This document shows positions 59,440-63,667 of a stretch of 64,000 bases of DNA, in pieces; positions within the stretch are counted from its first letter, which is position 1, and every line of letters begins with the position of its first letter. The notes beneath the pieces were generated by a model. The model was not told the origin of the DNA. It saw only the letters and a list, made by a program, of their open reading frames with translations, and ran no database searches. Location of the stretch: positions 1 to 64,000 of the forward strand of contig JAUNUJ010000002.1 in the NCBI GenBank assembly GCA_030538235.1, read 5' to 3'. This DNA is from Alcaligenaceae bacterium. Lineage in GTDB: Bacteria; Pseudomonadota; Gammaproteobacteria; Burkholderiales; Burkholderiaceae_B. The position numbers and the translations under genes are program-made.

Positions 59440-60126
59440 ATGCCACCGATCGAAACACACGACACTATGTCGGTTACCTCCTTAATTCTTAATGCCAGTT
59501 TACCTGTGCAAATTATTATGCTGATTTTAGTCATTGCCTCAGTAGCATCTTGGGCGATTATGATTAGCAAGTACTTTCAAGTTAAACGCGCCATGAGTCA
59601 GACTCGCGAGTTTGAAGAGAGCTTCTGGCAAAGCAAAGAGCTATCCGATCTACACCAGAGTGTGGGCAAGGACTTGGACCAAAGCGGTCCTTTGGCGCGA
59701 ATTTTTAACTCCGGCATGACCGAGTTTTTGCGCAGTCGACGTAGCGGCCAAACCGATAGCGAGCGCATTATTGATGGTACTTACCGCGCCATGCAGGCCA
59801 CCTACCAACGCGAAGTTGACAGCTTAGACTCCAAGCTGAACTTCTTAGCCTCTACCGGTTCAGTCAGCCCTTATATCGGCCTGCTCGGTACGGTTTGGGG
59901 TATTATGCACTCATTTATCGGTCTCACCACTGCTGTCAACGCAACGCTTAGCGCAGTTGCCCCGGGTATTGCCGAAGCACTGATTGCTACTGCCATCGGT
60001 TTATTTGCCGCCATTCCGGCTGTCTTGGGTTATAACTATTTCACTACTCAAAATGACAAAATCGCCGGCCGTTTCGACAGTTTCTCTGATGAACTTTTAA
60101 ATATTTTACAACGCCAGCTCCGCTAA
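59440..60126 (+). CDS. tolQ: Tol-Pal system proton channel subunit TolQ
   Basis: A 228-residue membrane protein with three segments (about 20-40, 135-155 and 175-195). LASTGSVSPYIGLLGTVWGIM and PGIAEALIATAIGLFAAIPAV are the ExbB/TolQ signatures. Five copies around a TolR dimer form the proton-driven motor that energises TolA. tolR starts 1 base after its stop. Confidence 0.95.
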   Translation: MPPIETHDTMSVTSLILNASLPVQIIMLILVIASVASWAIMISKYFQVKRAMSQTREFEESFWQSKELSDLHQSVGKDLDQSGPLARIFNSGMTEFLRSRRSGQTDSERIIDGTYRAMQATYQREVDSLDSKLNFLASTGSVSPYIGLLGTVWGIMHSFIGLTTAVNATLSAVAPGIAEALIATAIGLFAAIPAVLGYNYFTTQNDKIAGRFDSFSDELLNILQRQLR

Positions 60127-60127
60127 G

Positions 60128-60568
60128 ATGAAAACATACCAACGTCGCCGCCGGCGCGGCTCACGCCGTACAAATGAAATTAATGTAGTGCCCTACATTG
60201 ATGTCATGCTAGTGCTGTTAGTGATCTTTATGGTGACTGCTCCCATGATTACTCCGGGAGTGGTTAATCTGCCTTCAGTCGGCCAAGCCACTGAAGTGCC
60301 TTCGACGCCGGTAGAAATTCAGATTTCTGAAGACGGCAGCTTTGGCATTCGTCTGCGCAATGCCGGTGCCACCTTCCAAGACATTTCTAAAGAAGCGCTT
60401 CTGAGCGAGGTTCAAATGCTGGTGCAACAGCCTGACACGCCGGTGGTTATTGCCGCCGATGGCAAGGTGCCCTACGAGGAAGTGATGCAAGTGATGGATA
60501 CCTTACGTTCTAACGGTGTCACTCGCTTAGCTTTGATGGTAAACCAAACAAAAAGTAGTAACCAATAG
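60128..60568 (+). CDS. tolR: Tol-Pal system subunit TolR
   Basis: A 146-residue protein with a basic, Arg-rich N-terminus, one membrane segment with the proton-conducting Asp in VVPYIDVMLVLLVIFM, and a periplasmic domain ending near RLALMVNQTK. It couples proton flow through TolQ to TolA. It sits directly between tolQ and tolA. Confidence 0.95.
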   Translation: MKTYQRRRRRGSRRTNEINVVPYIDVMLVLLVIFMVTAPMITPGVVNLPSVGQATEVPSTPVEIQISEDGSFGIRLRNAGATFQDISKEALLSEVQMLVQQPDTPVVIAADGKVPYEEVMQVMDTLRSNGVTRLALMVNQTKSSNQ

Positions 60569-60579
60569 TCTATTAGTCA

Positions 60580-61797
60580 ATGATTAAGTTTGAGAATCCT
60601 AACGAGTTCTACGAGAGCAGTGATAACACCAAAGGCCTGATTGGTTCTTTGGCGTTTCACATGGCTATTGTGGTGCTTGTCATCGCCAGTCTCTTTATGA
60701 CGACCGAGCAAGCCGCCGGCCCGATTCAGCTCGAGCTGTGGGCCGAAGGTACAGAGCAGATTCTCAAAGCGCCGACTGAAACAGCCACTATGAATCCGGC
60801 TGACGAAGATACCATCAACGAAGATGAAATGGATCCGGAACCAGAGCCCGAACCTGAACCCGTTCCTGAACCGGAGCCCGAGCCCGAACCTGAACCAACG
60901 CCGGAACCGGAAACCGAAGCCCCGGCTCCTGAGCCTGAACCAGTAGTAACGCCTCCGGTGGCCCAAACCCCACCGCCTGTACAGCAAGAAGATCCTGAAA
61001 TCGCTCTTGAGAAAAAACGCGAAGAAGAACGCTTGAAGCGTGAGGAGGAAAAGCGCCAACAGGAATTAGCTCGCCAAGAGGAAGAACGCCAACAGCGTGA
61101 AGCCGAAGAAAAGCGTCAGCAAGAGCTCGCCCGTCAGGAAGAACAACGCAAAAAAGAAGAGGCCGAAGAAAAACGCCAGCAAGAGCTCGCCCGCCAGGAA
61201 GAGCAACGCAAAAAAGAAGAAGCCGAGCGCCAGCGCAAACAAGAACTTGCTAAGCAGGAAGAGGAGCGCAAAAAGCGTGAAGCCGAAGAAAAACGCAAGC
61301 AAGAGCTCGCTCGCCAAGAGCAAGAACGCAAAGCAGCCGCAGAGAAAAAGCGTTTAGCCGAACTTGAAGCCAAGAAAAAGGCCGATGCTAAAGCTGCTGC
61401 TGATGCTCGCGCTGCTGCCCAAACCAAAGCTCAGGCTAATCGCCAAGGACCTGACGTGCGTGGCGCCATGCGTGGTGATATTGCCAGCATTGCCGGCATC
61501 CCGGGTGGTCGCAACGCCCAGAATCAACGAGGCGGTGGCGGTGGTAATAGCGCAGTGATTCAAGCGATTCAACGTTGCGTACAGCCTTTGCTACGCTTTG
61601 GTGGCGGACAGCGCTTAACAGCGCATTATGAAGTGAGCATTGACGCTAATTTACGGGCGACAAATGCCAGAATTACTCGTCGTTCGGGTAATGCGGCTTT
61701 TGATAATGCCGTGGTCAATGCCTTAAAAGCATGTCAAAAGTACCCGGCGGCCATTCGCAACTCAAAGTTTAACGGTCACTTTAATTACACGCGTTAA
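60580..61797 (+). CDS. tolA: Tol-Pal system protein TolA
   Basis: A 405-residue protein. Domain I is a single anchor (about 22-42, starting SLAFHMAIVVLVIASL). It is followed by a Pro-Glu rod (about 85-125), then a long charged coiled coil of repeated EEKRQQELARQEE units (about 145-290), and domain III (about 325-405) with IQRCVQPLLRF, LTAHYEVSIDANL and KACQKYP, whose two Cys should form the conserved disulphide. It spans the periplasm and contacts TolB and Pal. The Pro-Glu rod is more typical of TonB than TolA. Domain III is duplicated in the next gene. Confidence 0.93.
   Translation: MIKFENPNEFYESSDNTKGLIGSLAFHMAIVVLVIASLFMTTEQAAGPIQLELWAEGTEQILKAPTETATMNPADEDTINEDEMDPEPEPEPEPVPEPEPEPEPEPTPEPETEAPAPEPEPVVTPPVAQTPPPVQQEDPEIALEKKREEERLKREEEKRQQELARQEEERQQREAEEKRQQELARQEEQRKKEEAEEKRQQELARQEEQRKKEEAERQRKQELAKQEEERKKREAEEKRKQELARQEQERKAAAEKKRLAELEAKKKADAKAAADARAAAQTKAQANRQGPDVRGAMRGDIASIAGIPGGRNAQNQRGGGGGNSAVIQAIQRCVQPLLRFGGGQRLTAHYEVSIDANLRATNARITRRSGNAAFDNAVVNALKACQKYPAAIRNSKFNGHFNYTR
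61036..61345 (+). repeat. Tandem ~57-60 base repeats in the tolA coiled coil
   Basis: About five successive units encode variants of EEKRQQELARQEEQRKKE (18-20 residues each). The second and third units (about 61105-61220) are nearly identical at DNA level. Such repeats can change copy number by slippage and so alter TolA length. Confidence 0.75.
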
Positions 61798-62509
61798 TCG
61801 CAAATTAAAGTACTTGTGTTAACGTAGATTGAACTTAACAAAGTATTTGAGTTTATAGACTCTTTTGACTTAGGAGATAAATTGCTATGACAAGTACATT
61901 ACTCTTAGGCAGAGCTAAAAGCCTGCAATCAAGTGCATTTTTTACCATCAAAACCCTAGTCAGCTCATTAACTCTGAGCTTAGTTATGATCAATGGCCTC
62001 GCTCATGCGCAAAGTAAAGACCTAGATCCCTTGTCGGCAGAGATTAAAAACTCACAACTAAATGACGCAATACAGCAGTGCGCCCGTGCCAAACTGCACT
62101 TTGCTTATAGACAAGAAAATCTGACTGCCCACTATGCAGTAACTGTAGATAATGATTTGCATGTAAGCGATGCTAAGATCACTCACCCCTCCGGCGATAA
62201 AGCCTTTGATCATGCTGTGCTCAATGCCTTGACGGAATGCCCGGAATACCCCGAAGAACTGCGCAACTCAAGCTTCGAAGGCATCTTTAATTACACTCGT
62301 TAAGAGTCCTTTAAAAATTTTTGTGTTAACTTAATTAAAATTCACCCATTTATCAAAGACTCTAATTCAGGAGATGACGTGCTATGACTTCAGCATTATT
62401 TCCACGCAGAACTAAAAACCTGCGCTCAAGCATTTACCGTGTGATCGGTACGGTTGTTACCTCACTCGCTTTAACTCTCGGCATGAGCAGTGCTCACGCC
62501 GATCTTTAT
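61552..62509 (+). repeat. Tandem duplication spanning the tolA 3' end, spacer and tolB 5' end
   Basis: Copy 1 runs from the tolA domain III coding region through the spacer 61798-61886 into the chimera's first 42 codons. Copy 2 runs from the chimera's domain III region through spacer 62304-62383 into the tolB start. The spacers share TTGTGTTAAC, AGACTCT and AGGAGA in the same order. The new junction lies inside the chimera at about 62015-62050. Divergence is substantial, so the event is old. Confidence 0.75.
61887..62303 (+). CDS. Chimeric secreted TolA domain III protein (TolB-like signal + TolA C-terminus)
   Basis: A 138-residue protein between tolA and tolB. Residues 1-42 resemble the TolB start: MTS-L...R-K-L-SS, then a hydrophobic stretch ending GLAHAQ, against TolB MTSALFPRRTKNLRSS...SAHA. 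Residues 53-138 match TolA domain III, including IQQCAR, LTAHYAVTVDNDL, KAFDHAVLNALTEC and the identical ending FNYTR; both disulphide cysteines are kept. There is no membrane anchor or coiled coil, so the product should be soluble in the periplasm. AGGAGA precedes the ATG as in tolB. Probable action: binding TolB, Pal or TolA partners as a competitor or helper, which is inference. Confidence 0.85.
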   Translation: MTSTLLLGRAKSLQSSAFFTIKTLVSSLTLSLVMINGLAHAQSKDLDPLSAEIKNSQLNDAIQQCARAKLHFAYRQENLTAHYAVTVDNDLHVSDAKITHPSGDKAFDHAVLNALTECPEYPEELRNSSFEGIFNYTR

Positions 62510-63667
62510 GTACCGCTTTCGTCTAGCGGTCAGGAAAACTTTAAATTCCCGATTACGGTAGCGGACTTCGCCGGTCCTAACGGCAAAGAAATTGCCGATA
62601 TTGTGGCTGCCGACTTGATTCGCTCAGGTGAGTTTGAGGTAAATCGTGTTGAAGCCGTTACCTCCGATTCCGCCGGCACCCCTAACTGGGAGGCGATTAA
62701 CGCTTTAGAAATCGCCAGCCCATTAGCCTATGGTTCAAGCACCGGTAGCGCGGTCAATTATGGCCTACTGGATCCGGTTCAACAAAGCACCATTGAAAGC
62801 AAAACCTTGACCGGTAGCAACCTGCGTCGTCAAGCGCATCGTGTTGCCGATGCCATTTACGAAAACCAAACCGGTGTCCGTGGTATTTTTTCCACACGTC
62901 TTGCCTATGTCGCCGGTAACCAATTGTATGTAGCTGATGCAGATGGTCAAGGCGCTCAAGTCGTGGCGTCTTCTAACTCATCAATTATTTCGCCTAAATG
63001 GTCACCCGATGGTCAACGATTAGCTTATGTAAGTTTCGAGAGTGGCAAACCGGTAGTCTATGTACAAAATCTGGCTAGTGGCGGTCGTATCGTCGCCGCT
63101 AATTTCCATGGCAATAACAGTGCGCCGGCTTGGTCACCTGACGGCAGCCAGTTAGCGGTTGCTCTTAGTAGAAGTGGTCTCTCCAACATCTTCTTGATTA
63201 ATGCCGGCGGTGGTGAGAGCGCTCGTCAAATCACTAATTCTCCGGAAATTGATACAGAGCCCTACTTCTTTCCTAATGGTAGCGGTATTATTTTTACCAG
63301 TGACCGTGGTGGTAGCCCTCAAATATACCGCTCCGGCTTAGGAGGCGGTGGTGCTAGTCGTATTACTTTCAATGGTTCACAAAACGTCTCCGGTGCTATT
63401 TCTCCTGACGGTCTACGTCTCGTTAACTCCAGCCTAAGAGGCGGTGCTTACTCGATTGCACTGACTAATTTAGGTGGTGGCGGCGATCAACTACTGACTA
63501 ATGGTCCAAACGATCTGTCGCCTAGTTTTGCAGCTAATGGCATGCAAGTTTTGTATGTTTCGGGCTCAAACTTGGCCTTAGTAAATATCGATGGCAGTAA
63601 TCAACAAATCATCCCGACCTCTTCTGGTGGTATTAGCAGTGCTGCTTGGGGACCATTTGTAGAGTAA
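62384..63667 (+). CDS. tolB: Tol-Pal system periplasmic protein TolB
   Basis: A 427-residue secreted protein. The signal peptide ends at SAHA (residue 38), the mature N-terminus DLYVPLSSSGQ is the TolA-box region, an N-terminal alpha/beta domain (about 45-160) follows, and a six-bladed propeller carries repeated PKWSPDGQRLAY, PAWSPDGSQLAV and FTSDRGGSPQIYR motifs. It binds Pal and TolA and regulates Pal at the septum. Confidence 0.96.
   Translation: MTSALFPRRTKNLRSSIYRVIGTVVTSLALTLGMSSAHADLYVPLSSSGQENFKFPITVADFAGPNGKEIADIVAADLIRSGEFEVNRVEAVTSDSAGTPNWEAINALEIASPLAYGSSTGSAVNYGLLDPVQQSTIESKTLTGSNLRRQAHRVADAIYENQTGVRGIFSTRLAYVAGNQLYVADADGQGAQVVASSNSSIISPKWSPDGQRLAYVSFESGKPVVYVQNLASGGRIVAANFHGNNSAPAWSPDGSQLAVALSRSGLSNIFLINAGGGESARQITNSPEIDTEPYFFPNGSGIIFTSDRGGSPQIYRSGLGGGGASRITFNGSQNVSGAISPDGLRLVNSSLRGGAYSIALTNLGGGGDQLLTNGPNDLSPSFAANGMQVLYVSGSNLALVNIDGSNQQIIPTSSGGISSAAWGPFVE

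Follow-up and report, generated by a model that had tools for sequence, protein, structure and literature searches.

Within the window, that is, the whole stretch of 64,000 nucleotides that was analysed, the tol operon contains a short reading frame, here called X, between tolA and tolB. How did this frame arise, is it maintained, and what could its product do? Profile searches gave a complete tolQ-tolR-tolA-X-tolB order at 59440-63667, and the coordinates of tolA, X, and tolB in the original prediction were right (Table 1). The tolA product, an envelope-stabilising protein, consists of an anchor followed by a long charged domain II and domain III; in TolB, the first 39 residues form a long signal peptide, and this is the part which X resembles. 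A cpoB-like gene, named by eye, is also present downstream of pal. No promoter-like site was found in 61500-62600, and the Rfam search of the locus gave no match; the operon position suggests that X is co-expressed with tolB. Both spacers flanking X carry a GTGTTAAC-T/G-TA motif (61807-61826 and 62314-62333), and GTTAAC motifs of a similar kind were seen in the tolA-tolB spacers of several relatives.

Table 1. Features of the tol locus in the window and of the probable lipoprotein genes of family f202 (L101 to L106 are loci of that family).
Feature	Position	Strand	Length	Remarks
tolQ	59440..60126	+		TIGR02796, 283.7 bits (cut-off 221)
tolR	60128..60568	+		TIGR02801, 130.4 bits (cut-off 127.3)
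tolA	60580..61797	+	405 aa	TIGR02794, 91.6 bits (cut-off 59.45)
TolA domain III	61546..61797	+		very probably the domain that was duplicated; final three bases are the stop
Spacer 1	61798..61886	+	89 nt	very probable copy of the tolA-tolB spacer; carries GTGTTAAC motif and AGGAGAT
X	61887..62303	+	138 aa	free TolA domain III, predicted to be periplasmic
Sec signal peptide of X, predicted	61887..62009	+	41 aa	...AHA/QS; TolB-like; cleavage site by eye
TolA-domain-III part of X	62049..62300	+		two Cys and C-terminal FNYTR strand
Spacer 2	62304..62383	+	80 nt	present-day spacer upstream of tolB
tolB	62384..63667	+	427 aa	TIGR02800, 368.1 bits (cut-off 343.15)
f202 probable lipoprotein	L101:2984-3490
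f202 probable lipoprotein	L102:2945-3451
f202 probable lipoprotein	L106:891-1361
f202 probable lipoprotein	L103:4589-5038	-
f202 probable lipoprotein	L104:4202-4669	-
f202 probable lipoprotein	L105:4209-4667	-

Domain content and origin of X

Residues 55-138 of X aligned with the end of TolA at 52% identity over 84 residues (E = 8.7e-21). X scored above the gathering cut-off of TonB_2 (PF13103; 30.5 versus 22 bits, match at residues 72-122) and below the curated cut-off of the full TolA model TIGR02794 (19.2 versus 59.45 bits). The domain is preceded by 54 signal-like residues, with neither an inner-membrane anchor nor domain II; no TolB_N domain or beta-propeller was matched in X at E 0.001, the signal region alone being common to X and TolB. 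In all four genomes carrying X its product shows a charged start, a hydrophobic stretch, and A-x-A (judged by eye), and its export to the periplasm is considered likely. Judged from its sequence, X is a freed TolA domain III lacking TolA's anchor and predicted to be exported, as had been proposed. The retention of both cysteines was also borne out, as they are invariant in the four X and in the TolA domains compared.

At the DNA level, spacer 1 aligned with spacer 2 with a score of 21 (shuffle mean 10.0, reached by 0/300 shuffles, z = 6.1) and the N-terminal part of X with that of tolB with a score of 23 (shuffle mean 9.5, 0/300, z = 8.6). The domain III regions of tolA and X gave z = 24.6, and the whole duplicated unit aligned to its copy z = 39.1. 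At the protein level, residues 1-55 of X scored 72 against residues 1-60 of TolB, and residues 43-138 scored 210 against TolA, with 0/1000 shuffles reaching either score. In addition, AGGAGAT is located 15 bases 5' of the start of both X and tolB. A tolB-like start, ribosome-binding site, and spacer joined to a TolA end are explained by one tandem duplication, and X almost certainly arose in this way from the tolA 3' end, the spacer, and the tolB 5' end. The original prediction had claimed as much for the two spacers, for both ends of X, and for the single duplication; a likeness of spacers and N-termini no better than chance, named there as contrary evidence, was not what we found.

As signal peptides share composition, the N-terminus was also ranked against unrelated starts. 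A set of 1,939 candidate starts served as this stricter control. They came from 363.8 kb of contig C10 in the genome that contains the window (G000), and each frame of about 100 aa or longer could contribute several. For X of G000, the tolB start was the best non-self match (71; best unrelated start 45), and tolB likewise came first for X of G003 (48, against 37 for the best unrelated start). For X of G001, an internal start in the tolB signal region scored 43, the start of tolB itself 39, and the best unrelated start 36; for X of G006, tolB was not the top match (30 versus 36 for the best unrelated start). Ranking at the DNA level, tested in G000 and G003, put tolB first after X itself in G000 (23, next 19); in G003, tolB was absent from the top five. 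The TolB-like N-terminus is hence clear in two of the four species; G001 and G006 have a shorter signal peptide, whose likeness to that of TolB is weak or absent.

The spacers vary in a similar manner. No unrelated upstream region (0/400) reached the score of spacer 1 of G000 against its own spacer 2. Spacer 1 of G003 matched spacer 2 of G001 (0/400 unrelated regions as good), while its likeness to its own spacer 2 was weak, with 11/400 unrelated regions and 27/300 shuffles reaching the score. Spacer 1 of G006 matched the G001 spacer 2 only (1/400), and that of G001 was at chance level; in these two genomes spacer 1 is apparently largely decayed. Compared with genomes lacking X, spacer 1 of G000 resembled the single tolA-tolB spacer of G002 (0/400 unrelated regions as alike) and, to a lesser degree, that of G004 (2/400), with no resemblance to that of G005. 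Spacer 1 of G003 showed a weak likeness to the spacer of G002 (4/400) and none better than chance to that of G004 (66/400). A remnant of the mature TolB N-terminus at the X junction was also considered; in G000 it was not significant (410/2000 shuffles reached it), and the other three X were at chance level.

Occurrence in Oligella and selection on X

Four of the eight genomes of the genus Oligella (G000, G001, G003, and G006) carry an intact X. In three (G002, G004, and G005) tolA is directly followed by tolB, and the remaining assembly (G007) gave no match to X/TolA III or to TolB. Among the genomes searched, X is limited to part of one genus. The order tolA-X-tolB, for which related genomes were to be searched, is thus present in three further Oligella genomes; their X frames are open and not disrupted, and X lies beside tolB in 4/4. 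In G001 and G006 the profile match extends upstream over one stop, beyond the frame start. In G005, a 315-aa TonB/TolA-like gene was observed between proS and a ybgC-like gene, upstream of tolQ (L018:9320-10267, minus strand).

The X domains of the four genomes are monophyletic, forming one clade (100/100) beside the Oligella TolA domains. A protein tree of seven genes (alaS, gyrA, rpoB, proS, tolQ, tolR, and tolB, several of them partial; without rpoB for G000, gyrA for G003, and the tol genes and proS for G007 and the outgroups) united G000, G003, G001, G006, and G007 (support 80), with G004 outside this clade (80) and G002 outside the clade plus G004 (97). A four-gene protein tree also split the X-bearing from the X-less genomes (65). 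With G002 and G004 outside, no loss is needed, and a single gain of X without loss fits best, although the position of G004 is not firm. X could instead be older and have been lost by repeat recombination in G004, perhaps also in G002. Tandem repeats can collapse cleanly, and a three-gene protein tree without tol genes (alaS, gyrA, and rpoB) placed G004 weakly with G000 (56), and a nucleotide tree joined it at low support (46) to the G003 group; against the seven-gene and four-gene trees, however, such a loss appears unlikely. The G000 assembly gave no rpoB match, though all ten other genomes searched had one.

Selection was assessed with our own codon model. The X domain had an omega of 0.091 (2dlnL 131.6 against 1) and X as a whole one of 0.168; the N-terminal part of X gave 0.46 (2dlnL 6.1). 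In the same species, omega of TolA III was 0.029, and X was less constrained than TolA III (2dlnL 12.2, joint tree). Synonymous sites among the X are near saturation (pS 0.63-0.84); the robust statement is therefore the uncorrected pN/pS, which was 0.17-0.28 in 6/6 pairs. The earlier claim that X is under selection agrees with these values, and X is now almost surely under purifying selection, as read from its codons. On the branch leading to X, omega was 2.09, not different from 1 (2dlnL 0.46; joint tree) but above that of the later X branches (2dlnL 14.6; joint tree). The high stem value and the low later values indicate a relaxed or adaptive phase, followed by constraint. Ten sites are fixed differently in the four X and six TolA, and KLHFAYRQ is invariant in X.

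X might also be a decaying by-product of the duplication without function. Its N-terminal part does evolve fast, and three related genomes manage without X; the omega and likelihood gain over the domain and the open frame in 4/4 genomes nevertheless make this very improbable, and the conservation of X already largely refutes it. The locus clearly illustrates the birth of a chimeric gene for a probably secreted product, very probably from one tandem duplication, in which the source genes, relatives free of the duplication (G002, G004, and G005), and the later constraint are all visible.

Possible functions of X

The force of the Tol motor is applied at the contact of TolA III with TolB. X belongs to the same family as TolAIII of Escherichia coli and Pseudomonas aeruginosa (TonB_2 / TolA C-terminal), but differs in having no membrane helix or domain II, and therefore cannot be pulled by TolQ-TolR. 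PMC4339652 assigns the site for TolB, g3p, and ColN on E. coli TolA III to strand beta3, which lies C-terminally, and PMC7066135 gives the same beta3 site for the TolB complex. The affinity of TolA for TolB is weak even in E. coli, with a Kd of about 40 uM in both reports. The last strand of X was equated with beta3 by position and family alignment; among solved TolA structures, X gave no significant match (E 0.1 to 0.16). Relative to Oligella TolA, this terminal strand keeps F-G-F-Y-R in all four X, and the four X-bearing species share one and the same mature N-terminus of TolB (LYVPLSSSGQENFK).

A laboratory parallel exists for an exported domain III. The construct pTA3Y, a ribose-binding-protein signal fused to TolAIII, makes E. 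coli release periplasmic protein, according to PMC6195910, and shares with X the architecture of signal peptide plus TolA III. The expectation that exported TolA domain III disturbs E. coli thus has a real counterpart in this fusion (PMC6195910). Unlike the engineered fusion, X occurs naturally, is conserved across four genomes, and apparently uses a signal borrowed from tolB. As the terminal strand is kept, the TolB N-terminus is the same, and exported TolAIII makes E. coli leak, we favor the reading that X would compete for the N-terminus of TolB, or buffer it, without being coupled to the motor. It might then slow or tune the pull of TolA on TolB-Pal, and hence the delivery of Pal to the septum. 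From sequence, competition of X with TolA at TolB is possible rather than probable, and the explanation as a whole, joining origin, selection, export, and TolB competition, stays tentative.

The charge of X complicates this picture. TolA III has a net charge of +9, X of -4 to +1 (46-51% identity to the TolA III of the same genome in the tree alignment), and mature TolB is acidic, from -4 to -10 (the G004 sequence being partial). As X is much less basic than its own Oligella TolA III and TolB is acidic, the apparent electrostatic match is lost, which weakens the simple view of a TolA III copy binding TolB. The charge loss was rejected as a sign of selection, because drift suffices: 23% of 4,000 neutral simulations reached a charge of -2 or less. 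It may equally mean another partner, and the ten X-specific fixed sites fit a new partner as well.

Neofunctionalisation of X for a partner other than the N-terminus of TolB, such as CpoB, Pal, TolA itself, or a TonB-box-like peptide from another protein of the envelope, would accord with the stem omega, which exceeds that of the later X branches though it is not different from 1, with the ten fixed sites and the invariant KLHFAYRQ, and with the charge shift. We consider it rather unlikely, since X adjoins tolB in 4/4 genomes and keeps the terminal strand, and the sequence points to no candidate. X could also act as a decoy, capturing those proteins of bacteriocins or filamentous phages which depend on TolA III; in E. 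coli, the strand bound by TolB is also the one to which colicin N and phage g3p attach (PMC4339652). The Zot family, one phage marker, was however matched in 0/8 genus genomes, so that a phage decoy gains no support, and X had no significant match in phage, plasmid, PHROG, and PADLOC collections (best PHROG E 0.16). A decoy role is accordingly quite improbable. In the preferred reading as a competitor at TolB, X may tune how cells hold the outer membrane together.

To our knowledge, the only free TolA III described so far are laboratory constructs. The PMC literature searched described no natural one in a tol operon, which is not proof of absence in print, and contained no paper combining tolA, tolB, and Oligella. 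CpoB/YbgF is, like X, a periplasmic accessory protein encoded in the tol-pal operon, but its fold is unrelated to TolA III. A conserved natural free TolA III in the operon means that some bacteria tolerate or use the free domain, and X gives a handle on the regulation of the TolA-TolB cycle.

A second case in family f202

In a search of the order with query A3, 106 of 399 genomes, drawn from a larger group, gave a match, and paired domain-III matches were found in one other family, f202. Here a TolA III protein is encoded between tolA and tolB in 6/10 genomes and absent in four. The protein has 149-168 aa and consists of a lipobox (L-x-x-C-A in 6/6), a mostly proline-rich linker, and TolA III; its gene overlaps tolA or starts 4-8 bases after it. 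In E. coli, alanine at position +2 directs a lipoprotein to the outer membrane, and by this rule the +2 alanine would send the f202 protein there. Omega of the f202 domain was 0.081 versus 0.114 for TolA III of the same genomes (assumed topology).

The f202 protein and X are thus both free TolA III encoded between tolA and tolB and under purifying selection, but the former has a lipobox where X has a soluble signal. Its charge is +10 to +11 (versus 0 to +5), a shift opposite to that of X, so the two proteins need not do the same thing. As the f202 protein shares 37-49% identity with TolA III from the same genome and 21-27% with X of G000, an independent origin of the two appears to be the best reading; in a joint tree, a single long branch, placed among the f202 proteins at weak support (34-57), carried all Oligella TolA and X. 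On a wider view, the Tol-Pal machine might include a free TolA III as a dedicated motor-free subunit, buffering TolB and setting the strength of motor action on Pal, with at least two independent origins in one order, soluble with a tolB signal in Oligella and a probable lipoprotein in f202. We regard this generalisation as doubtful.

Outside Oligella, the order search listed ten frames shorter than 200 aa, and each of them was opened. Six are the f202 cases. Two candidates (G928 and G032) were rejected as their frames are cut by contig ends, and one (G922) as it looks like a broken tolA frame. The tenth, in G708, is a separate gene, an isolated lipoprotein-like frame (LLAGC; TonB_2 56.4 bits; L114:2953-3447) that adjoins a gene resembling ubiA (judged by eye) and lies apart from the tol genes. 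A family search with query A1 gave a match in 101/268 genomes, frames of 223-290 aa being left out; the candidates under 200 aa outside the genus (G234, G237, and G105) are tolA fragments directly before tolB. With PF13103, 353/369 genomes of the class matched, and among the matches listed the short frames of G537, G603, and G583 were rejected as cut-off or broken tolA. These three were the short frames opened in the class search, those near contig starts (G387, G312, and G637) being set aside, and further cases are possible.

The f202 loci contain a further frame of 291-299 aa (370 aa in L105) between tolQ and tolR. It was seen in nine loci (L101-L105 and L107-L110), L106 beginning too late to tell, and in most of them it has an LLGS-I/V-H stretch near the start.
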